Of a DNA stretch of 64,000 nucleotides, positions 11,196 through 32,097 are shown piece by piece; position 1 is the stretch's first letter, and every line of letters begins with the position of its first letter. A program made the position numbers and the translations under genes. Where the stretch lies: contig JAFDIS010000006.1 in NCBI GenBank assembly GCA_019307945.1, positions 1 through 64,000 on the forward strand, written 5' to 3'. This DNA comes from Deltaproteobacteria bacterium. Its GTDB lineage: Bacteria > Desulfobacterota > DSM-4660 > Desulfatiglandales > Desulfatiglandaceae. Below the pieces are notes generated by a model that worked only from the letters and a program-made list of their open reading frames with translations, did not search any database and was not told where the DNA came from.

Positions 11196-12056
11196 ATGGA
11201 ACGTGAAGCGTTCATCCGGAGACTGGAACAGGTGGAAGACCTTCCCACACTGCCTTCGGTGGCCATGGAGGTGAACCGGCTCCTGGAGGACGAGGATGTC
11301 TCCATCCGGAAGTTGACCGACACCATCGAGAAAGACCAGTCCATTGTGAGCAAGATTCTCAAGCTTGTCAATTCGGCCTTTTTCGGCCTCCGCTCCCGGG
11401 TGGACAACATCTCCCACGCGGTGACGTTGCTTGGCTTCAACACAGTGAGGAATGCAGTGCTTTCGGTCTCCGTCATCAAGACCTTCGGAGGAGTTAAGCC
11501 GGGTGACGGCTTCAGCATGGCCGACTTCTGGCGGCACGCCGTGGCCGTGGGGATCACGGCGCGGTTCCTGGGCCAGCAAACTCGGCTGGCCTCGCCCGAC
11601 AACGGCTTTATCGCAGGACTCCTTCACGACATGGGCAAAGTGGTGCTCTCGGCCTTCTTCCCGGAGATTTTCCGGGAGGTGCTTCAGGGCTTGGCCCGGG
11701 GGATTTCCTTTTATGAAGCGGAGCGCGATACCTCGCCCATGGACCACGCCAGGATCGGCGGATTCCTGGCCCGGCAGTGGCAGCTTCCCCGGAGCCTGAC
11801 TGACGCCATAAGGTGCCACCACGCGGTCAAGCAGAGTGCGGCCGATTACCGGCTTCTCCTCCTGGTCCATGCGGCGGACCTTGTCTCGGTGCGGGTGAGG
11901 AACGAGCAAGAGGGTGCCGAAGCCCTGAAAGGACTGCACCCGGAAGCCTTAAAGGCGGTGAGATCTCAGCTTGACAATTTCCATGACTGGTCTCAAGACC
12001 TCCGGGAAGAGATAGATACCGGGTGCCGCTTCTTTCTCGAGGAGTTGGATTCATGA
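11196..12056 (+). CDS. HDOD domain protein
   Basis: The 286-aa protein is almost entirely an HDOD domain (LPTLPSVAMEVNRLL, ISHAVTLLGFNTVRNAVLSVSV, GLLHDMGKVVLSAFF). HDOD proteins are non-catalytic or weakly characterised relatives of HD phosphohydrolases that act as signalling scaffolds and often accompany HD-GYP regulators, as here. ATG 11196 has a GAGGAAAGGA ribosome site. The stop overlaps the next start (ATGA). Confidence 0.92.
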   Translation: MEREAFIRRLEQVEDLPTLPSVAMEVNRLLEDEDVSIRKLTDTIEKDQSIVSKILKLVNSAFFGLRSRVDNISHAVTLLGFNTVRNAVLSVSVIKTFGGVKPGDGFSMADFWRHAVAVGITARFLGQQTRLASPDNGFIAGLLHDMGKVVLSAFFPEIFREVLQGLARGISFYEAERDTSPMDHARIGGFLARQWQLPRSLTDAIRCHHAVKQSAADYRLLLLVHAADLVSVRVRNEQEGAEALKGLHPEALKAVRSQLDNFHDWSQDLREEIDTGCRFFLEELDS

Positions 12057-12901
12057 GAGAGTATACACATACCATTCTTTGCGTGGACGACGAGGAAAAC
12101 GTTCTCCGCGCCCTCAAGCGCCTCCTGCGCAAGGAGCGCTATCGAATTCTGAGCGCGTCCACCGGGCGGGAAGGCCTCAGGGTCCTGGAGGAAGAGGACG
12201 TACACCTGGTGATCTGCGACCAGCGCATGCCGGAGATGAGCGGGACGGAGTTCCTGGCCCGGGTCAAAGAAGACTACCCGGACGTGATCCGCATGATCCT
12301 CACGGGGTATACGGATGTGGATTCGATCACCGAGTCGGTAAACAAGGGGCACATATACAAGTTCCTTCTCAAACCCTGGAACGATCAAAACCTCAAGCAG
12401 GAGATCCAGCGGGCCCTGGAACAATACGACCTGATCGCAGCAAACCGCGCGCTCCACGAAAAGGTCCTCCGGCAAAACCAGGAACTCACCCGCATAAACG
12501 AGGGCCTGGAGACGCTGGTCCGGGAGAGGACCCGGGAACTGCAGATCCAGAACCAGGCCCTGGAGCTGTCCCACGCGATCCTGGAAGACCTCCCCGTTCC
12601 CATCGTGGGGGTGAGCGCCGAGGGTATGGTCGTCCTGGTCAACAGGGAGGCTAGGGCCCTCGAGACCCCGGAAGGGGCCATCGAAGAAGGGAGGAGACTC
12701 TCCCGCTACTTTGATGAATTGGTCTCGGGCTGCGTGGCGCGCGTGCTGCGGGACGGAGCCTCTGAGAGCCTGAAGGCGGGGATTTCGGGAGAGAGCCCTT
12801 TTCGGGTGACCGTGACACCGCTTTCAGGGAGATTCAAGGGCAAGGGAGTCATTCTGGCCCTCGAGTCTCGGGGCAAGGGTCGTGGCCCCTGTGATCCATG
12901 A
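12053..12901 (+). CDS. Response regulator with coiled coil and C-terminal PAS-like domain
   Basis: The 282-aa protein has a receiver (ICDQRMPEMSG) strongly similar to that of the HD-GYP protein at 9794, including a GYTDVDSITESVNKG segment that parallels GYSDMDAIVEAVNKG. A coiled coil follows (about 135-180), then a short PAS-like domain (LEDLPVPIVGVSAEGMVVLV). No output enzyme is present. It may be a sibling of the 9794 protein that lost HD-GYP or exchanged it for a sensor module. The start overlaps the HDOD stop. Confidence 0.88.
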   Translation: MREYTHTILCVDDEENVLRALKRLLRKERYRILSASTGREGLRVLEEEDVHLVICDQRMPEMSGTEFLARVKEDYPDVIRMILTGYTDVDSITESVNKGHIYKFLLKPWNDQNLKQEIQRALEQYDLIAANRALHEKVLRQNQELTRINEGLETLVRERTRELQIQNQALELSHAILEDLPVPIVGVSAEGMVVLVNREARALETPEGAIEEGRRLSRYFDELVSGCVARVLRDGASESLKAGISGESPFRVTVTPLSGRFKGKGVILALESRGKGRGPCDP

Positions 12902-13244
12902 TGTACCCGGTGAAGGAGAGACGCTGCAGGATTCCCGAATTTTATCGATGGTGGGCCCGATGAAAGAGAAAAAACCGCGGGAGGACGTGCAAGAAAGGAC
13001 CGAAGAATCGTGTCGAAGGGAGGATATCTCACCTTCCGAATCTTCCGGGGATCCCGGAATCGCCTTAGGCGAATCTCTGCTTCGCGCCAGACTGAGGGAA
13101 GCTGCGACCGCGTACCAGAAACAGATGAAACGCAATATTCTCACAGCCTTGATGGACTCCCCGGGGTCTCCGGAAAGGGTCGAAATTTCACGAAAGGGGT
13201 CTGAACGACACAAGAGTCGGGGAGGGAGGAGCAACCGCAAGTGA
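12882..13244 (+). CDS. Small hydrophilic protein coupled to a hybrid kinase, function unknown
   Basis: The reading frame of up to 120 aa bridges two signalling genes. The N-terminal half is charged and low-complexity. A helix (SLLRARLREAATAYQKQMKRNILTAL) near residues 63-90 is the only clear structure. Its stop overlaps the GTG of the next gene (GTGA), supporting real translation. The start is uncertain: GTG 12882 overlaps the previous gene by 20 bp, and ATG 12948 or 12960 are alternatives without a clear ribosome site. Confidence 0.45.
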   Translation: MAPVIHDVPGEGETLQDSRILSMVGPMKEKKPREDVQERTEESCRREDISPSESSGDPGIALGESLLRARLREAATAYQKQMKRNILTALMDSPGSPERVEISRKGSERHKSRGGRSNRK

Positions 13245-15913
13245 GCAGTTCTCTGGAAGAAAAGATCACCTGCACCGCCCTGCGCCTGGTCGACAGTCTC
13301 TCGCCGCTGGTCCTGGGGGAGCGTCGCGCCAGGGACCCGCACTCCCTCTTGTTCTGGCGGGAGCGGATCCTTCTCTGGCTCATGGTGGGTGGTGGAATCC
13401 TCGGAGGCCTGGGCCTCCTGCTGGGGGTCGGCCGGGCCCTTCAGGCGGGGCCCTGGGTGAATGCCCTGGTATATTCGGCGGTATACGCATGTGGCCTGGT
13501 GATCACCTTTTTGAAGAATCTCCCCTACCGCGTCCGGGCCTGGATCTGGCTCATGGGGTTTTTCACGCTGGGGACGGTCTCCCTTTGGGCCTCGGGATTC
13601 TTGGGCCCTGGAAGGATATGGCTGTTCTTCTTCGCCCTGGGCGCCGCCCTGCTTCTGGGACTTCGAGGGGGCATTGCGGCCCTGGCCCTGAACGCGGGGG
13701 CCCTGGCATGGATTCTGTGGTGGGCCGGGCCCCAGGCCCCATGGTGGCAGGCCGGGAACCCTCAATTTTCCCTGCTTTTGATTTCGAGCTGCACCGGTTC
13801 CATGACTGCTTACGCCGTTTGCGCTGTGGGAATCGCCACGCTGGCGAATTCCATCGGGCGAGTCCTGGAAGAAGAAAGGATCCTTTCGGCGGGCCTTGCA
13901 GAGGCCAACCGCAGGCTCCAAGCGGAGGTAGCCGTGCGCCTGGAAGCCGAAAGGGCCGCGCGGGTCGGTGAGAAGAATCTTCGTGAGATCCTGGAGGGTT
14001 CAGCCATCGCCACCTTCGTGATCGACCGGGAACACCGGATCACCCACTGGAACCGGGCCTGCGAGGTCCTCACGGGCGTGCCGGCCTCATCCATGGTGGG
14101 AACGCGCAAGGCGGGTGAGGTTTTCTACGGCAGGCCCCGCCCCGTGATGGGGAACCTGGTACTGGACGGGGCGCCGGAGTCGCGGATCGCGGAGCATTAC
14201 GACGGGGCCTATAGACGGTCGGCGCTCTTGCCCGGTGCCTTCGAGGGCGAGGGCTTCTTCCCACACTTCGGAGAAAAAGGCAAGTGGGTGTTTTTCACGG
14301 CCGCGCCTATCAAGAACGCCCAGGGGGAGACGGTGGGGGCCGTGGAGACGCTCCAGGACATTACGGCCAGGAAGGAGGCCGAAACCGCACTTGAAAAGAG
14401 CGAGGCCTTTCACCGGGGACTCATGGAGACCCTGGAGGACATGGTGTTTCGCATCGATCTCAACGGCCGATTCAGCTATCTCAACCCGGCCTTCGAGCGC
14501 CTCACGGGGCACCGGGCCCGGGACTGGGTGGGCCGACCCTTCCTGGAACTCGTGGCGCCGGAGTCGGCGGCCCTGGTGCGGGAGCAGTTCAGGCGGGGTA
14601 TTACGGGGGAGAGCCTCGCTACCGAGGAGGTTTGTCTCCTGGACCATCGGGGCGAAAAGATCCCCGTGGAAATCAACGTGGTGAACCTCAAGGACGAGCA
14701 GGGTCGGACCGCCGGCCGCCTGGGCGTCGCACGGGACTTGAGGGACAGGATTCGGGCTCGCGAGGAGAGGGCCCGGCTCGAGCGCCGCCTGCGGCAGTCG
14801 GAGAAGATGGAGGCCATCGGGACCCTGGCAGGCGGCATCGCTCACGACTTCAACAACATCCTCTACGCGGTCATCGGCTACACGGAACTGTCCATGGACG
14901 AGGTGGGCGAGGGGCATCCTGCATGGTGTTTCTTGGAGGAAGTCCTGCGGGCCGCCCAGAGGGCGAAGGACCTTGTAGGCCAGATTCTGACCTTCAGCCG
15001 CCAGGGCCCGGATGAGCGGCGACCCGTGCGGGTGGACACGGTTGTGCGGGAGGCAATGGGGCTGCTCAGGGCCTCCATTCCCAGCACCATAGAGATAAGG
15101 CAGGAAATCGAGACCGAGGCACTGGTAACGGCCGATCCGGTGAGGCTCCACCAGGTGGTCGTGAACCTCTGCACCAATGCCGCCCAGGCCATGGAAGAGA
15201 AAGGCGGTACTCTTACGGTGCGCCTGGAGGAAAAGCCCGAAGTGCCCTCGAGGCTCGGGCCGGCACCCGGCCCTTACCTCCTCCTTACTGTCGAGGACAC
15301 GGGGCCCGGCATGCCTGAAAAAGTCCTTGACCGGGTGTTCGAACCCTTTTTCACCACCAAGGACAGAGGCAAGGGCACGGGCATGGGTCTTTCCGTGGTA
15401 CACGGTATCGTGGAAGGGTACGGCGGCACTGTGACCGCTCAGAGCGAGCCGGGCAAGGGTGCGGTGTTTCGTGTCTACCTTCCGGCGACGGGGTCGGGTG
15501 CAGAGACAGGGGACTCGGACGATGTCAAGTGCCCCGTTCCCATGGGACGGGGAGAACGGATCCTCTTTGTGGACGATGAAGAGGCACTGGTCGCCCTGGG
15601 ACAGCGGATGATCGAGTCCCTGGGCTATCGGGTAACCACCCGGGTGAGCAGTCTGGAAGCCTTGGAGCTTTTCCGTGCGAGCCCCTCGCGGTTCGACGCG
15701 GTGGTGACGGATTTGACCATGCCCCACATGAAGGGAGATGAACTGGCCAGGGAGATCACTCGTATCAGACGGGACATCCCCGTGATTCTCTGTACCGGGT
15801 TCGGGGCTGAAGCCGCCGGCCCCTCAAACGGGATCCGGGCGGTGGTGAATAAGCCGATCCTGCGGAAAGATCTGGCGCAAACCCTGGCAGAGATCCTGCG
15901 GGAGGCCCCCTGA
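13241..15913 (+). CDS. Membrane PAS hybrid histidine kinase with C-terminal receiver
   Basis: The 890-aa protein begins with a multi-pass membrane region (about six hydrophobic segments between residues 45 and 205). Two PAS domains follow (about 245-380 and 385-505), then HisKA with His535 ([10 protein letters not shown]), HATPase_c ([13 protein letters not shown]) and a receiver ([11 protein letters not shown]). The kinase core is a close relative of that in the first gene of the block: both share DLVGQILTF-x-RQG and LLRAS-x-PSxxEIR segments. The GTG start has a GGGAGGAG ribosome site. It is last in the operon and ends 60 bp before a convergent gene. Confidence 0.92.
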
Positions 15914-15975
15914 GATGGCCATGGCCCTTGCAGCAGCCGGTTGAGGCCCCGGCGGATTTTTCGGCGGAATCATCC

Positions 15976-16485
15976 TTATTGGGCCCTGTCCCCCCTCGCA
16001 TGAGCTACGCCCACCAGTCCCAGGAGGCCCGAACCCAGGAGCAGGAGGCTTCCGGGTATGGAGACCGGCGACATGTCAAAATCTTCCGTGGCGGTCCAGG
16101 CTCCGTCGTAAATCAGGGTTCCCGCACCCTGGACCGCACCGTCCAGCATCTCGGCCCACTGCATCTCAAAGGGCGCCTTGTCGGAAAAGCGGACCTGCCA
16201 CCTGCCCTTTCCGGCCGCGATCTCGGGCCCCGCACCCCGGAGGTAAGTGGATGTCTGAACCTCGGTATTCCATCCCTGGGGATTGTTGGGCTGTTTCCAG
16301 TCCAGGAACGTCACGTCGCCTCCGGTGAGCCAGAGGTGAATTTCGTCCGGATCGTAATCATTCCGAAAGACCTGGGTCCAGGGGGCCGCCTGGGCCTCTC
16401 TCTCCCAGGCCGGTGTCGTGAGGCAAAGGGCGACGGCCAGCAGCAATGCGGCGCCGGCCATGATTTTCTTGGTATGTTTCGGCAT
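15976..16485 (-). CDS. PEP-CTERM-type secreted protein
   Basis: The 169-aa protein has an N-terminal signal peptide (KKIMAGAALLLAVALCLT, with cleavage near AQA-AP) and a C-terminal sorting signal: the SIPGS motif, the hydrophobic run LLLLGSGLLGLVGVA, and a basic tail HARGDR. This is the VPxPG/PEP variant seen in Desulfobacterota PEP-CTERM proteins, which are processed by exosortase and delivered to the cell surface or matrix. The middle part (about 35-140, tryptophan-rich) matches nothing I know. No exosortase is encoded in the window. It has its own sigma-54 promoter. Confidence 0.75.
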   Translation of the reverse strand: MPKHTKKIMAGAALLLAVALCLTTPAWEREAQAAPWTQVFRNDYDPDEIHLWLTGGDVTFLDWKQPNNPQGWNTEVQTSTYLRGAGPEIAAGKGRWQVRFSDKAPFEMQWAEMLDGAVQGAGTLIYDGAWTATEDFDMSPVSIPGSLLLLGSGLLGLVGVAHARGDRAQ

Positions 16486-16564
16486 GAAAAGTCACATCCT
16501 TTCATTTTCCAACTGTCCCGGCGAAGATTATCCATGGGCGACACCGGGGGTCGGCCTTTGAAAA

Positions 16565-16580
16565 TGCAAGAGTCGTGCCT
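16565..16580 (-). promoter_or_regulatory. Sigma-54 (-24/-12) promoter for the PEP-CTERM gene
   Basis: On the minus strand the sequence AGGCACG-N4-TTGCA matches the -24/-12 consensus, with the GG and GC dinucleotides exactly 10 bp apart (CC at 16578-16579 and GC at 16566-16567 in plus-strand letters). Transcription should begin about 70 bases before the ATG at 16485. PEP-CTERM genes are frequently sigma-54 controlled, and a sigma-54 activator is encoded next door. Confidence 0.8.
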
Positions 16581-16601
16581 GAACAATGCATTCAAGAGAA
16601 A

Positions 16602-16619
16602 CGAAAAAGGCCTTTTTCG
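16602..16619. repeat. Perfect 18-bp palindrome upstream of the sigma-54 promoter
   Basis: CGAAAAAGG and CCTTTTTCG form a gapless palindrome 22 bp upstream of the -24 element of the PEP-CTERM promoter. It may be an activator-binding site, although that is closer than usual for a sigma-54 enhancer. A hairpin role for the activator transcript, which ends at 16772, is less likely because there is no loop. Confidence 0.45.
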
Positions 16620-16771
16620 CCTGTGAAAACAAGCAAATGGCATTTTTCAAGGCAAAAATCCTACGGAATGAGAAGCGAGGTTCCGAGCAACACCGTGAAG
16701 AACTCGTAATCAGAGGTTGTTGGGATTACGATTTGGTAATCGACGTGGTCATTCCTTCGGGGGAGGCGGCT

Positions 16772-18139
16772 CTAACGGTTCCGCTTCCAGCCCGGATGAG
16801 TGATCCCGAATTTGCGGATCTTGTAGTTGAGGGCCCGGGGGGTGACGCCAAGGGCCAGGGCGGCATCCTTCTGCACCCAACGGGCATCTTCCAGGGCCTT
16901 GAGGATGAGCGCCTTTTCCTGGCTCCGGAGCCGGTCCGCACCTGCGGGCACGGGTCGTTCTCCCCCGCCGGAACTTTCGGTGCCGCTGAGGGAGATGCTA
17001 TCGGAACCGATCACGTCTCCCTCTTCCAGGATGGCGGCCCGCTCGATGGTGTTGGCCATCTGGCGGATGTTCCCGGGCCACGAGTAGGCTCGGAAGCGTT
17101 CAAGGACCTCGGGGGCAAACCCCGTGATCCGTTTTCTCAGGGTTCGACAGACCCGCTCCAGGAGCCAGTGGGCAAGTGGTTCGATACACTGTCGTCGTTC
17201 CCTGAGAGGTGGCAGGTGCACGGTCAGGACGTTGATTCGATAAAAGAGGTCTTCGCGGAATTTTCCCCCGCCGATCTGCTCTTCCAGGACGCGGTTGGTG
17301 GCGGCTATGACGCGAACGTCCGAGCGGATGGTGCGGTTTCCGCCCACCCGCTCAAAGGCCTTTTCCTCCAAGACCCGCAGGAGCTTGCCCTGGAGGGGCA
17401 TACTCAATTCCCCGATCTCGTCCAGAAAAATCGTCCCGCCCTGGGCCTGCTCAAAGCGTCCCACTCTCACCCTGTCGGCCCCGGTAAACGCCCCCTTTTC
17501 GTGACCGAACAGTTCGCTTTCAAGAAGCGTTTCCGGGATGTTGGAGCAGTTGATCTTCACAAAGGGCTTGTGCCTTCGGTGGCCGTTGAAATGGATGCTT
17601 CCGGAAAGGAAGCTCTTGCCGGTCCCGGTCTCCCCCGTCATGAGGATCGTGGCGTCGGTCTCGGCGAATTTTTTGAGCGATCTGATCACCGCCTTCATGT
17701 TGGGACTCTCCGCTATGATTCGGTCAAAATCATAGATCACGTCCTGCTCGTGCCGGAGATAATCGATTTCTCCCCGCAGGCTCTTGGTGTCAAGGGCCCG
17801 GTCCACGGCCAGGCGAATCTTGGCGGCCGAATAAGGCTTCCCCACGAAATCGAAGGCCCCTTCCTTGATGGCCCGCACCACGATTTCCGTTTCCTCCGTC
17901 TCGCTGGTCACCACCACCGGCATGTGAGGGCGCAGTGTGCGGATACGGGAGAGGAACCGGAAGGGATCCCCCGGCGCGGCCTGCAGGTCCAGGATCACCA
18001 GGTCATGGTGGCGTGAGGAAAGCCTGTGCTCCAGATCTCCTTCGGGGGACAGGAATTCCAGCGGGTGATCCGGCTCGAAGCCCCGGGAAAGGACCTCCCT
18101 CCAGCGTTTCTGATTTTCAACGGCCAGGATGCTGCCCAT
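16772..18139 (-). CDS. Sigma-54-dependent response regulator (PrsR-like candidate)
   Basis: The 455-aa protein has an N-terminal receiver (VILDLQ phospho-acceptor, FVGKP lysine, but only one acidic residue visible in the early VEN segment), an AAA+ domain with Walker A GETGTGKS and GAFTGA, and a Fis-type helix-turn-helix (VQKDAALALGVTPRALNYKIRKFGI). ATG 18139 has a strong GAGGAAAGGA site. It sits just upstream of a PEP-CTERM gene that carries a sigma-54 promoter, the arrangement expected for PrsR, the PEP-CTERM regulator. I infer that role from context and not from a diagnostic motif. Confidence 0.88.
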   Translation of the reverse strand: MGSILAVENQKRWREVLSRGFEPDHPLEFLSPEGDLEHRLSSRHHDLVILDLQAAPGDPFRFLSRIRTLRPHMPVVVTSETEETEIVVRAIKEGAFDFVGKPYSAAKIRLAVDRALDTKSLRGEIDYLRHEQDVIYDFDRIIAESPNMKAVIRSLKKFAETDATILMTGETGTGKSFLSGSIHFNGHRRHKPFVKINCSNIPETLLESELFGHEKGAFTGADRVRVGRFEQAQGGTIFLDEIGELSMPLQGKLLRVLEEKAFERVGGNRTIRSDVRVIAATNRVLEEQIGGGKFREDLFYRINVLTVHLPPLRERRQCIEPLAHWLLERVCRTLRKRITGFAPEVLERFRAYSWPGNIRQMANTIERAAILEEGDVIGSDSISLSGTESSGGGERPVPAGADRLRSQEKALILKALEDARWVQKDAALALGVTPRALNYKIRKFGITHPGWKRNR

Positions 18140-18232
18140 GGTGTTTCCTTTCCTCAATCATAGAGTGAAACCCGATCATGCCCCTGTCCCCACAGGCCCT
18201 CAGCGGGCGAATCCGAGGGCGGCCGCTCATGG

Positions 18233-19987
18233 TCACGGGGTACCCCTCTGCCTCTGCGGGGCTGTTTCTGCGAGGCGGTGGTAGCGGTCCATGTGCCGGG
18301 CCGCCCTGTCGAAGTCCCCAAGGGCCCTGCAGCAATTGGCCATGTACCGTGCGGCCTCCGCTGAGTCGGGATATTCGGCCAGGAGCGCCATGGCCTCCTC
18401 ATAGGCCCTGGCCTTCATGAGGCTTACGGTGAGGCAGAGGGCCAGTTCCTCGTCCGGGCCCAGTGCGGCCAGGCCTTGCCGCAGGATATGCACCGCCTCG
18501 GAGTGTTCGCCCCTGCGCTGTTTCAGCATGCCCAGCCCCAGGTAAGCCCTGCGGTCCGAGTGAAGAGAGAGCGCCCTGCGGAACAGGGTTTCAGCGGTCT
18601 TTTCGGGCTCGGGAATGCCGTTTGTATGGGCGTAATCACCGTGGCTGAAGGTGAGCCCCAGCCGCGAGCAGAAGTCGGCCGACAGGGGGGCCATATCCTC
18701 CCCCTCCTCCAGTTCCAGGGAGTCCACATACCCGGGAAGCCTGCCGTAAAACCCCGATCTAAGGGTCCGCCCGAAGCCCATGACGTCCTCAGCGGAAAGA
18801 TCCGGATCCATCTCGAAATACATGACGTCCTCCGTCCGGGCCAGCCATGTCTCGTCGGAGATTTTACCCTCCTTCTTGAGATCTTCGTAAAGGGTCGTGC
18901 CGGGAAAGACGTCCAGGATGTAAAAAACGGCACCCAGGGGCCTTATTCGGTCCATGAGATCCAGGGACTCCCGGATGGTCTGGTCGGTTTCTCCCCGGGA
19001 TCCGTAGATGAAATAGGCCCGGGGCAGCATTCCGCAGCGGGCCGTGAGTCGGAAGGCTCGCTCGGCCTCTTCCGGCGTGAGATCTTTCTGCAAGAAATTG
19101 CGGATCCGCTGCGAACCGCTCTCCACCCCATAGCTCACCTGGATGCACCCGGCCTTGCGCATCCAGCGCAGCACATCTTCGTCCACGTGCCGCACGTGGC
19201 TGATGGCCGCCCAGGCAACTTGGAGGCCTCGGGCCAGGATCAGCCTGCAGACCTGCACCACCCGTTTCTTGTTGAGGGTAAATGTGTCGTCGGAGACATA
19301 GAAAAAGGAGATGCCGCGACGGGCCAGGATCTCCATCTGGTCCACGAAATACTCCGGGGAATGGGCCCGCACCCTACGGCCCCAGAAGCGCGGGGACCCG
19401 CAAAAGGCGCACCTGCCGGGGCAACCCCGGGTGAGTGCAAGATGCTGGAAGTCGAAATAGCGGGCGGGCATGGGTAAGACATCCAGATCCCGGATCGGTG
19501 CCCGGTCGGGGGTCTTGACGATACGCTTCCCCTGCCGAAAGGCGATCCCCGAGACGCGGGGCAGGCGGTCGTGGCGATCCTGCTCCAGGCACTGGATCAG
19601 TTCCAGTAAGCCGTACTCTCCTTCGCCCCTGACGATGTAATCCACCTGCTCGAAGTGGCGCAGGAAATGCTCCCAGAGGAAAGTCGCGCCGACCCCCCCG
19701 AAAACCACACACACGGCGGGGTCGATCTCTTTGGCCCGGGCGGCCATGTCGAGGCCTCCCCATCGGTTGGCGTGAAGGATGCTGAAGCCCATCACGCGGG
19801 GTCGAAATTCCCGCATGAGGCCTTCCCAGTCTTGGGGGCCCCGCTCGTACCCGTTGAAGATCTCCACCTCGTGGCCAGCTTCCTTGAGGACCGCCCCCAC
19901 CGAATAGATGCCCATGGGCAACGCCCGCACGTCCTCTTCGTGGATCCTATCTTCCAGACATCTTGGATAGACGAGCAGAATCCTCAT
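18233..19987 (-). CDS. B12-binding radical SAM protein with C-terminal TPR region
   Basis: The 584-aa protein has an N-terminal cobalamin-binding-like Rossmann domain (about 1-145), a radical SAM core with the cluster motif CPGRCAFC (CxxxCxxC, about residues 193-200), and helical TPR-like repeats (about 450-570). It belongs to the large B12-dependent radical SAM superfamily, many of whose members methylate or rearrange unactivated carbon. The substrate is unknown. The ATG overlaps the stop of the upstream kinase-fold gene, so the two are co-translated. Confidence 0.85.
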   Translation of the reverse strand: MRILLVYPRCLEDRIHEEDVRALPMGIYSVGAVLKEAGHEVEIFNGYERGPQDWEGLMREFRPRVMGFSILHANRWGGLDMAARAKEIDPAVCVVFGGVGATFLWEHFLRHFEQVDYIVRGEGEYGLLELIQCLEQDRHDRLPRVSGIAFRQGKRIVKTPDRAPIRDLDVLPMPARYFDFQHLALTRGCPGRCAFCGSPRFWGRRVRAHSPEYFVDQMEILARRGISFFYVSDDTFTLNKKRVVQVCRLILARGLQVAWAAISHVRHVDEDVLRWMRKAGCIQVSYGVESGSQRIRNFLQKDLTPEEAERAFRLTARCGMLPRAYFIYGSRGETDQTIRESLDLMDRIRPLGAVFYILDVFPGTTLYEDLKKEGKISDETWLARTEDVMYFEMDPDLSAEDVMGFGRTLRSGFYGRLPGYVDSLELEEGEDMAPLSADFCSRLGLTFSHGDYAHTNGIPEPEKTAETLFRRALSLHSDRRAYLGLGMLKQRRGEHSEAVHILRQGLAALGPDEELALCLTVSLMKARAYEEAMALLAEYPDSAEAARYMANCCRALGDFDRAARHMDRYHRLAETAPQRQRGTP

Positions 19988-28382: not shown

Positions 28383-28435
28383 ACCCTGCCTGCGTAGCGG
28401 GCGGCATGGAAACGGATGAGAAGGGAGCAGGCAGA

Positions 28436-29782
28436 ATGGTTTCCCACCTGAGCGGGGATCCGGGCAGGGCCGGCAAGAGCATGCAGGATACGGGTGACGA
28501 ATACGTAACAAACGTCCGGTACCTGTACTCTCTCCAAAAGTTCGGCATCAAGCTGGGGCTGTCCAAGACCATCACCATGCTGGAGCGGATGGGCAACCCG
28601 CATTTAGGCAGGAGATACGTCCACATCGGAGGGACCAACGGTAAGGGTTCCGTGGGAGCGTTCATGGCCTCCGTGCTCCACGAGGCGGGTCTGAAGGTGG
28701 GCCTCTACACCTCGCCCCACCTGGTGCGGTTCACGGAACGGTTCCGGATCAACGGCAGGGAGATGGAAAGGCGGCAGGCCTCGGCCCTGATTCAAGAGTT
28801 GAGAAGGGTTATGGATCCGCAGGATCCCCCAACCTATTTTGAGACCACTACGGTAATGGCTCTCCTGCATTTCGCCAGGAACGGGACCGACATCGACGTG
28901 ATGGAGGTGGGCATGGGCGGGCGTCTCGACGCCACCAACGTGATCACGCCCCTGGTCTCGGTGATCACGAACATCTCGGCCGAGCACCGTGAATATCTGG
29001 GCTCAGGGATTTTGCAGATAGCGGCCGAAAAGGCTGGAATCATCAAGGAGGGTGTGGAGGTCGTCACCGGGGCCACACAGCCGGCGGTGGTGCGTCTTTT
29101 TGAGGAACGATGCACTCGACTGGGAGCTTCCCTGAGGCGGCTGGGGGCCGATGCGCGCTATCGACTCACGGCATCGGGGCTTCATTACTACGGCAGAAAC
29201 CGGACCCTAGGGAGGCTTGCGCCCGGGCTTTCGGGAGACTTCCAGGCCCGAAATGCGGCCCTGGCCCTGGCCGCCCTGGAATGCCTGGAGGAAAAGGGCT
29301 TTCGTTTGACAGAGCAGGATCTGAGGGAGGGCCTGCGAAAGGCGCGCTGGCCGGGAAGGATGCACCGGGTGCGGGAGCGTCCCACCGTGCTCGTGGACGG
29401 TGCGCATAATCCGGCGGCGGCCAGGACCCTGGCCCGGGCCCTGCAGGCAGGTTATCGGTACCGCCGGCTAATCATGGTGGTGGGAATCATGGCGGACAAG
29501 GATGTGGGTGCCATCCTGAGGGCCCTGATTGCTCCGGCCCACCATGTGATTTACACCAGGCCCGCCTATCCGCGGGCGGCTGAACCCGAAACGCTCCGGG
29601 AAAAGGCGGCGGGGCTCGGCAAGGGGGGGGAAGTGGTCGGTGACTTGGCGGGCGCCCTCGAGAGGGCCATGGGGCTTGCCGCGCCCGAGGACATGGTGGT
29701 GGTGTGCGGATCCCTGTTCACGGCGGGCGAGGCCCTTTCCCTCCTGGATCCTGAACATTTCGAGCCGGACATCCCCGCCTGA
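28436..29782 (+). CDS. folC: Bifunctional folylpolyglutamate/dihydrofolate synthase
   Basis: The protein of about 448 aa is a Mur-ligase-type enzyme that adds glutamate to dihydropteroate or folates. It shows the ATP loop GGTNGKGSVGAF, the mid-domain HREYLG and KAGIIKEG motifs, and the C-terminal DGAHNPAAA motif. I prefer ATG 28436, which has AAGGGAG at 8-base spacing, over ATG 28406, which would leave a leader of only about 17 bases from the candidate promoter. Confidence 0.94.
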   Translation: MVSHLSGDPGRAGKSMQDTGDEYVTNVRYLYSLQKFGIKLGLSKTITMLERMGNPHLGRRYVHIGGTNGKGSVGAFMASVLHEAGLKVGLYTSPHLVRFTERFRINGREMERRQASALIQELRRVMDPQDPPTYFETTTVMALLHFARNGTDIDVMEVGMGGRLDATNVITPLVSVITNISAEHREYLGSGILQIAAEKAGIIKEGVEVVTGATQPAVVRLFEERCTRLGASLRRLGADARYRLTASGLHYYGRNRTLGRLAPGLSGDFQARNAALALAALECLEEKGFRLTEQDLREGLRKARWPGRMHRVRERPTVLVDGAHNPAAARTLARALQAGYRYRRLIMVVGIMADKDVGAILRALIAPAHHVIYTRPAYPRAAEPETLREKAAGLGKGGEVVGDLAGALERAMGLAAPEDMVVVCGSLFTAGEALSLLDPEHFEPDIPA

Positions 29783-29832
29783 AGAAGCAGGCCGGTTCCA
29801 ATCCCCGGAAGATCACCTTTGGGAGGTACCTC

Positions 29833-32097
29833 ATCCTTACGGCCAGACTAAGAAAAGTCCACTCATGGCTGTTCCCGCTTTTTCTCTTCGTCCTTTGCCT
29901 TTGGGCGGATGCCCATGCGTTTGCCGGACAGGGATTTTCCCGGGACCGCCTGCTGGGCGATCCGAACGCGCCCTGGGAGATCACGGCCGAGCGCCTGGCC
30001 TATGACCAGGAGGAGGGTGTTTACCGGGCTCGCGGCGCGGTGGTCATCCGAAAAGGCGACCAGGTTCTTCATGCGGAGGAGGCCACCTACCGGCAAAAGA
30101 CGGGTATGGTCTCCGTGCGTGGGAACGTGAGGCTGGAGGCTGGTGGCGACGTCCTGCGCGGAGATTCGGGTTGGTTCGATCTCAACCGCCAGGTAGGACG
30201 CATTGAGGGGGGGAGGCTTTTCCTGGCGAGGAATCACTACTACGTGCGCGGTGATTTAGTGGAAAAGACGGGCCCCGACACCTACCGTGTCCGAAACTGC
30301 GTGGTCACCACGTGCGACGGCCCGGTTCCGGCATGGAGCATCAGTGGCTCCGAGGTGGAAGTGACCCTGGAAGGGTACGGACATGTCACCCACGCGGCCT
30401 TCCGTGTGCGCGACTGGCCGGTGCTTTATTTCCCCTACATGGTGTTCCCGGCCAAGACCAAGCGTCAGACCGGATTCCTCCCACCACGGGCGGGGTATTC
30501 CACGCGCAACGGCGTGGAAGGGGAACTGCCCTTTTTCTGGGCCGTCTGCGACCAGGTGGACGCGACCTTTTATCCCCATTACATGAGCCGGCGGGGCTAT
30601 GAGCAGGGCGTGGAGCTGAGATACCGGCAGGGAGAGGAGTCGGGCGGGGTCTTCCTTTTCGATCTGTTGCAGGACCGAAAAGACAAGGACATGACCGACG
30701 AGGATGACCTGGCGATCAGTCCCTACAAAAGGACGAACCGCACGCGTTACTGGTTCAGGGGCAGGGCGGACCAGGAGTTTCCCCTGGGCGTGACCGGACA
30801 CCTGGACGCGGATTTGGTCAGTGATCAGGACTACCTGCGGGAACTGGGAAAGGACCTCTTCGGGTTCGACTCCCACGCAGACCCCGCCTCCCGATCCGGG
30901 AGATCCCTGGAAGAAGAATCCTCCCCCACGAGGCGCTCGGCCCTGCGCCTGGACAGGGACGGGGAGGATTACAGCCTGCAGGGCCTCGCGTCTTTTCACC
31001 AGCGCCCTGAAAGGCCGCGGGAGGACATGACCGCTCAGCCCCTGGGAGGGGTCTACTTTTCCCTCCTTCCCAGGAAATGGGGAAAGTGGCCCGGCTTTTT
31101 CCGCGCGGAGACGGATTACGATTACGTCTGGCGAGAGGCGGGATCAAAAGGACATCGTACATGGGTGGCCCCGGAAGTGACCTTCCCCTTCTGGTTCCTG
31201 GATGACCGCTTGGTGGCAGAGACCTCGTTGCTGTACGAGTACAACCGGCAGTGGGTGGACGAAGGGAGGGATTTCGGGAATGAACAGCGGTCCAGGCGGG
31301 CCTATGAGGGGAGGGCAAATCTGTCTTTTCAGGCCGAACGCCTCTTTGACGGGCGCTGGGGCGACGCGGAGCGCCTCCGCCACAAGGTGACGCCCTCACT
31401 CCGGTACCGATACCGGGTCCACCACGCCCCCGAGGAGGCGAGTCCCTGGTTCGAACGGGTGGACGCGTCCAGCGTGGTCAACGGCATCGTCAACGAGCTC
31501 ACTTTTTCCCTGGAAAACGCCCTGGACGCCCGGCTCAGGCGGCAGGAAAAGGCCGCGCGTTACGCGAGGTGGTGCACCTTCGACCTGTCTCAGACCTATG
31601 ATCTGGTGGAGGCGCAGCGAAACCGGGGACCTGACCGCAGGCCTTTCAAGCCGCTGGCGGCTTCGCTGAACGTGTTTCCCGACGACGACCTGGACCTTCG
31701 GGGCTCCATCACATGGAACCACTATGACAAGATAATTGAAACCTCCCAGCTCAGCATGGTCCTTTCCGTGCCCCGTTCCGGGGGGCGAACGGATCACTAC
31801 GAACTTGACTATCTCTACGCAGTGGAGGATGAGAAGACCCTGAGCTTTTCGGCGGACATTTTTCTCCTCTGGGGGTTTTCCGCGGGCATGGCCTTGTCGC
31901 GAGATCTCCGGCTGGGCAAGGACATCTCACGCAGCCTGCGCTTGGGTTACAACAGCCAGTGCTGGGGGATCGATCTCGTGGTGGAAAAGCAGTACAGGGA
32001 GACCCGTTTCCTGGTGGTGTTCGATCTATTGGGCCTGGGTGAATTCAAGGGGGGGCGGAAGAAATCATCCCTCGTACGATACTGGCGCCGGGACTAG
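29833..32097 (+). CDS. lptD: LPS-assembly outer-membrane protein LptD, apparent non-canonical start
   Basis: The protein inserts lipopolysaccharide into the outer membrane. An OstA/LptA-like N-terminal domain (WEITAERLAYDQEEG onward) is followed by a large beta-barrel (YFPYMVFPAKTKRQTGFLPP is typical). Reading upstream in frame, a signal peptide appears (WLFPLFLFVLCLW, then ADAHAFA with an AHA cleavage site), preceded by basic residues. The frame is open back to 29755 but contains no ATG, GTG or TTG before 30040. An ATC at 29833 lies 6 bases after a GGGAGG site and is the best initiation point. The stop overlaps the stop of the convergent gene. Confidence 0.85.
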   Translation: MLTARLRKVHSWLFPLFLFVLCLWADAHAFAGQGFSRDRLLGDPNAPWEITAERLAYDQEEGVYRARGAVVIRKGDQVLHAEEATYRQKTGMVSVRGNVRLEAGGDVLRGDSGWFDLNRQVGRIEGGRLFLARNHYYVRGDLVEKTGPDTYRVRNCVVTTCDGPVPAWSISGSEVEVTLEGYGHVTHAAFRVRDWPVLYFPYMVFPAKTKRQTGFLPPRAGYSTRNGVEGELPFFWAVCDQVDATFYPHYMSRRGYEQGVELRYRQGEESGGVFLFDLLQDRKDKDMTDEDDLAISPYKRTNRTRYWFRGRADQEFPLGVTGHLDADLVSDQDYLRELGKDLFGFDSHADPASRSGRSLEEESSPTRRSALRLDRDGEDYSLQGLASFHQRPERPREDMTAQPLGGVYFSLLPRKWGKWPGFFRAETDYDYVWREAGSKGHRTWVAPEVTFPFWFLDDRLVAETSLLYEYNRQWVDEGRDFGNEQRSRRAYEGRANLSFQAERLFDGRWGDAERLRHKVTPSLRYRYRVHHAPEEASPWFERVDASSVVNGIVNELTFSLENALDARLRRQEKAARYARWCTFDLSQTYDLVEAQRNRGPDRRPFKPLAASLNVFPDDDLDLRGSITWNHYDKIIETSQLSMVLSVPRSGGRTDHYELDYLYAVEDEKTLSFSADIFLLWGFSAGMALSRDLRLGKDISRSLRLGYNSQCWGIDLVVEKQYRETRFLVVFDLLGLGEFKGGRKKSSLVRYWRRD

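Follow-up and report, generated by a model that had tools for sequence, protein, structure and literature searches.

Where does translation of lptD begin when its reading frame holds no usual start codon ahead of the signal peptide? LptD inserts lipopolysaccharide into the outer membrane and, to our knowledge, few bacterial genes start at AUU, AUC or AUA (AUH; ATH in the DNA). In the window, by which we mean the whole 64,000-nucleotide stretch that was analysed, the lptD frame reads open on the plus strand from 29755 to 32097 (780 codons). ATG, GTG and TTG are absent from it until GTG 30040-30042, which lies 69 codons downstream of an ATC at 29833-29835, and this ATC follows GGGAGG (29821-29826) after a spacer of 6 nucleotides. 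The sequence-only reading had described this arrangement: OstA domain, signal peptide and basic leader in one frame open back to 29755, a first usual start at GTG 30040, and an ATC 6 bases past GGGAGG. We reproduce all of these points from the sequence. Together with the T that follows it, the Shine-Dalgarno (SD) motif (29821-29827, plus strand) pairs with the anti-SD at about -11.6 kcal/mol. The upstream gene on the same strand is folC (28406-29782), whose stop lies 50 nucleotides before the ATC.

Read from the ATC, the coding sequence (29833-32097, plus strand) specifies 754 amino acids. The translation begins ILTARLRKVHSWLFPLFLFVLCLWADAHAFA-GQ: basic residues come first, then a hydrophobic core and finally an end that resembles Ala-x-Ala; judged by eye, the signal peptide expected of an LptD is therefore present if translation begins here. 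It would span 31 codons (29833-29925), ending in ADAHAFA before GQ, where cleavage is predicted. The N-terminal and barrel domains of LptD are present as well: LptD_N (OstA; residues 49-105, numbered from the ATC), LptD_2 and LptD are found, with PF19838, PF04453 and PF03968 all above the Pfam cut-off, and the NCBIfam LptD models match the product below their own cut-offs. A start at GTG 30040, within LptD_N and behind a weak SD (-2.5), would cost 69 residues, removing the whole signal peptide and cutting into LptD_N, and we judge that it is not the real start. We find no second intact lptD copy in the window's genome (a draft of 4.16 Mb in 185 contigs, 98.5% complete), since that genome gives a single lptD match.

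Is the arrangement peculiar to this genome? We sought lptD in 85 genomes of the window's class (probably DSM-4660 of GTDB, with Desulfatiglandales), which consists of one order; 76 matched and 67 have a usable 5' end (in the other nine, G066, G031, G027, G043, G044, G054, G077, G052 and G050, that end is absent, truncated at a contig edge, masked or misaligned, and they were not scored). A scan of genome contigs for LptD yielded distant LptDs only. A single rule was applied to all loci. Class A has no usual start from the in-frame stop to three codons before the hydrophobic core, class A2 has none within 40 codons, class B has an ATH whose SD reaches -6 kcal/mol or lower and which is better than the best usual start by 2, and class C is the rest. 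Families f1 and f2 (53 loci) divide into 11 A, 1 A2, 11 B and 30 C. AUH starts of lptD thus occur at 22 of the 53 loci and in 16 of 37 genera, a count that leaves out one locus scored A (L037) and three loci of family f4 whose B score is doubtful. The start codons are ATC in 10, ATT in 10 and ATA in 2, and the SD energies range from -12.9 to -5.6. At ten loci from seven genera, the window included, there is no ATG, GTG or TTG between the in-frame stop and the core of the signal peptide. An ATH lies 2-9 nucleotides past the best SD in 10 of the 11 A loci, where composition would lead one to expect 2.2 (P about 4e-7, with relatedness ignored). In L037 (genome G068) no usual start, SD or ATH precedes the signal core, and its congeners have ATG; this lptD may be damaged or misassembled.

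The sequence-only reading had proposed a comparison with orthologues, and had named a shared start further upstream as one outcome that would count against it. The comparison instead places an SD followed by ATT, ATC or ATA at the same position in the AUH loci, and in several of them an upstream start is excluded because a stop codon adjoins the SD. In L011 an in-frame TAA stands two codons ahead of the ATC, and in L016 and L028 a TGA directly abuts AGGAGG. Aligned, the 22 sites read (A)GGAGG, a short spacer and then mostly CC-ATH. The pair CC occupies positions -2 and -1 at 16 of the 22, against 73 of 374 strong-SD ATG starts in the window's genome (p 3e-7, the rows being related). CC and TC are already the commonest pairs before ATG in that genome, so these sites take a preference that exists locally and push it further.

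How specific is this to lptD of these families? We applied the rule unchanged to bamA of that family, on a sample of 30 loci from which L129 was dropped because its contig begins inside the gene. The result is 28 C and 1 A2, that is, 1 of 29 against 22 of 53 for lptD. For lptD from other classes of the phylum (the best 30 of 175 matching genomes), the rule gives 29 C and 1 B, or 1 of 30; the lone B has an ATG closer to the signal core, and the lptD genes in this sample use ATG, GTG or TTG. Fisher tests of lptD against bamA and against outgroup lptD give p-values of 2e-4 and 1e-4, for rows that are not independent. The positive control is infC, which starts at ATA in 30 of 30 loci of family f1 (L081-L110), past an SD of the GGAGG type or a near form, in the layout GGAGGTAA-NN-CC-ATA. 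AUH starts therefore function in these genomes, and in a layout common with that of lptD. At these infC loci an ATG often stands two codons before the ATA, too close to the SD.

Are start codons simply lax in this organism? We scanned 1,006,530 bp of the window's genome (24% of it, in 61 pieces with 623 genes closed at the 5' end) for coding signal before the first usual start, in a scan that would miss genes whose usual start sits a few codons past an AUH. The upstream coding score of lptD, 13.0, is the second highest of the 623. Only lptD joins a strong SD to an ATH from which a clearly coding stretch sets out (1 of 623 genes; score 8.2 against 0.3-1.3 for three other listed genes), and we reject a general laxness of start codons for this sample. 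The highest upstream coding score, 15.1, belongs to L229 on the minus strand of contig 41. In front of each of two large frames there (11681-14501 and 15653-19112) stands an in-frame TGA, and both TGAs have the peptide context TNDCAM*ILSPKLVEVG. Both frames score highly; the shared context suggests a selenocysteine rather than a missing start. We take these frames to resemble HdrA-type proteins with selenocysteine at UGA. Another large frame, L213 (contig 25, 338-3626, plus strand), lies near a contig end with an upstream coding score of 9.2 and without an SD-ATH pair.

We conclude that translation of the window's lptD very probably begins at AUC 29833. The sequence-only reading had left a choice between a rare start codon and an ATG misread as ATC at 29835. 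The relatives decide the matter in favour of the rare start, and an error of base calling or assembly in the window's genome, with ATG as the true codon, is now very unlikely. That genome is a draft in 185 contigs, and the tree neighbours L003, L004, L020 and L021 carry ATG about where the ATC sits; the ATG users among the nearest neighbours are the main evidence against the AUC start, and for their sake we leave a small chance that this one assembly is wrong. Consensus errors at any one given base are rare, however, and AUH starts are common in the clade. The ten loci without a usual start would require one and the same codon to be wrong in every one of these separate assemblies. An SD-ATH at the same place in 22 of 53 loci, ten of them without a usual start, is thus more than a random miscall in a single assembly could produce.

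Two other explanations place the start elsewhere. One of the non-standard codons near the ATC could be used instead, namely CTC 29830, CTT 29836, ACG 29839 or CTG 29869, and CTC and CTT do lie 3 and 9 nucleotides past GGGAGG; but ATH alone recurs at that place across relatives, the in-frame stop of L011 leaves just GCC and ATC near its SD, and CTG 29869 would delete the basic n-region. We regard this as slightly less probable even than a sequencing error. Least credible of all is a frameshift, real or artefactual, in which ribosomes would start out of frame, at ATG 29864 or within folC, and slip into the lptD frame. An out-of-frame ATG is indeed present at 29864, but by eye we see no strong SD before it, the SDs of the relatives are correctly placed for AUH, and gaps of 30-255 nucleotides between folC and the start, among AUH relatives in which folC was found, argue against a conserved slip.

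The same gaps bear on the gene neighbourhood. With 50 nucleotides between folC and the start here, and 30-255 in the other AUH loci in which folC was found, we reject an overlap of the two genes that would couple their translation. In L016, L024, L025, L028 and L040, folC was not found upstream and the AUH start of lptD is retained, so that the gene neighbour has changed and the start type has stayed.

In a quick tree search of LptD (65 of the 67 scored rows, two being too short, and five outgroups), the AUH loci fall in several branches of f1 and f2, and the start type changes at least 15 times between AUH and the usual codons. One clade of six loci from three genera (L013, L024, L025, L016, L028 and L040) is AUH throughout. 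The nearest tree neighbours of the window with a clear start use ATG, and the 30 canonical loci of f1 and f2 include G026/G005 and G015/G032, which are near the window on the tree. In genus g46, L051 reads GAGGAGG..ACC-ATT. Its sister L056 retains the ATT there, within Thr-Ile-Lys, but behind a weakened SD; the better-scoring start of L056 is an ATG six codons downstream of the ATT. Judged from the sequences, the pair appears to be a start switch in progress. The whole pattern is consistent with an old trait whose codon has changed repeatedly between AUH and AUG, gains and losses being indistinguishable on this tree.

How might such a codon be read? The strong SD 6 nucleotides upstream would position the AUC on the ribosome, where the ordinary initiator tRNA would read it with the help of the SD, its CAU anticodon mismatched at the third base, so that fMet would be the first residue of LptD. 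In the window's genome we find a single match to the initiator arm pattern, with CAT and inside a tRNA-Met called by ARAGORN; this single arm points to the ordinary fMet-tRNA as the initiator at AUC, and a changed initiator tRNA is rejected for this genome on the same ground. In some relatives GGGCTGATAACCC and further non-CAT forms of the initiator arm occur, which we take as chance words. Initiation at AUC would presumably be weak, with initiation factor 3 (IF3) discriminating against the codon. The account of the start as a whole (AUC, strong SD and ordinary initiator tRNA) seems to us highly probable, by a shade less so than the start codon itself. LptD synthesis would then be kept low and might track the ratio of IF3 to ribosomes, as for infC, pcnB and sigR. 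That the AUC start serves control by IF3 is a plausible but tentative suggestion, made by analogy with those genes. We advance more hesitantly the wider idea that lptD across the class may be under an IF3-discriminated start, so that the capacity for lipopolysaccharide export at the outer membrane would depend on the ratio of IF3 to ribosomes. If true, such a start would link growth to envelope building through translation, and the link would be as old as the class even though AUH and AUG have replaced each other repeatedly.

We found no report of a non-AUG lptD start in the open-licence literature searched. An outer-membrane gene of the essential type would join the AUH-start genes, and would do so across many genera. 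In these genomes, gene callers restricted to ATG, GTG and TTG would deprive LptD of its signal peptide and of some of OstA, or lose the true start of lptD. Related species with and without an AUH start in lptD also form a natural series for testing the purpose of such starts.

How does lptD compare with known genes of this kind? E. coli IF3 is described as repressing its own AUU start in infC (PMC9410913). The infC gene (AUU or AUA, autoregulated by IF3) and lptD are alike in the AUH start, the strong SD and a similar spacing. As in infC, no usual start of the window's gene could make LptD, its strong SD stands at the proper distance, and the start is kept in relatives, in 22 of 53 loci and not universally. 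Unlike infC, lptD encodes an outer-membrane protein, its codon varies among ATT, ATC and ATA and is often ATG in relatives, and feedback by IF3 on lptD is hypothetical. The same source has E. coli pcnB expression limited by an AUU start (PMC9410913). Like lptD, pcnB is a non-translation gene with an AUH start; unlike it, pcnB is nonessential, is not an envelope gene and belongs to another lineage. Streptomyces sigR starts at GTC and is repressed by IF3, as tested by mutation (PMC5472188); like lptD it retains a non-canonical start across species of a lineage, and it differs in its codon. In Staphylococcus aureus, an extended SD followed by AUH is described for cvfC1 (AUU), ccpN (AUA) and citZ (AUA), with the cvfC1 and ccpN starts retained across related species; AUA and AUU starts there give about 10% of the output of AUG in poor medium, and one reaches 30% in rich medium (PMC13009471). 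These three genes resemble lptD in joining an extended SD to an AUH codon, but they are Gram-positive genes, none of them for outer-membrane assembly.
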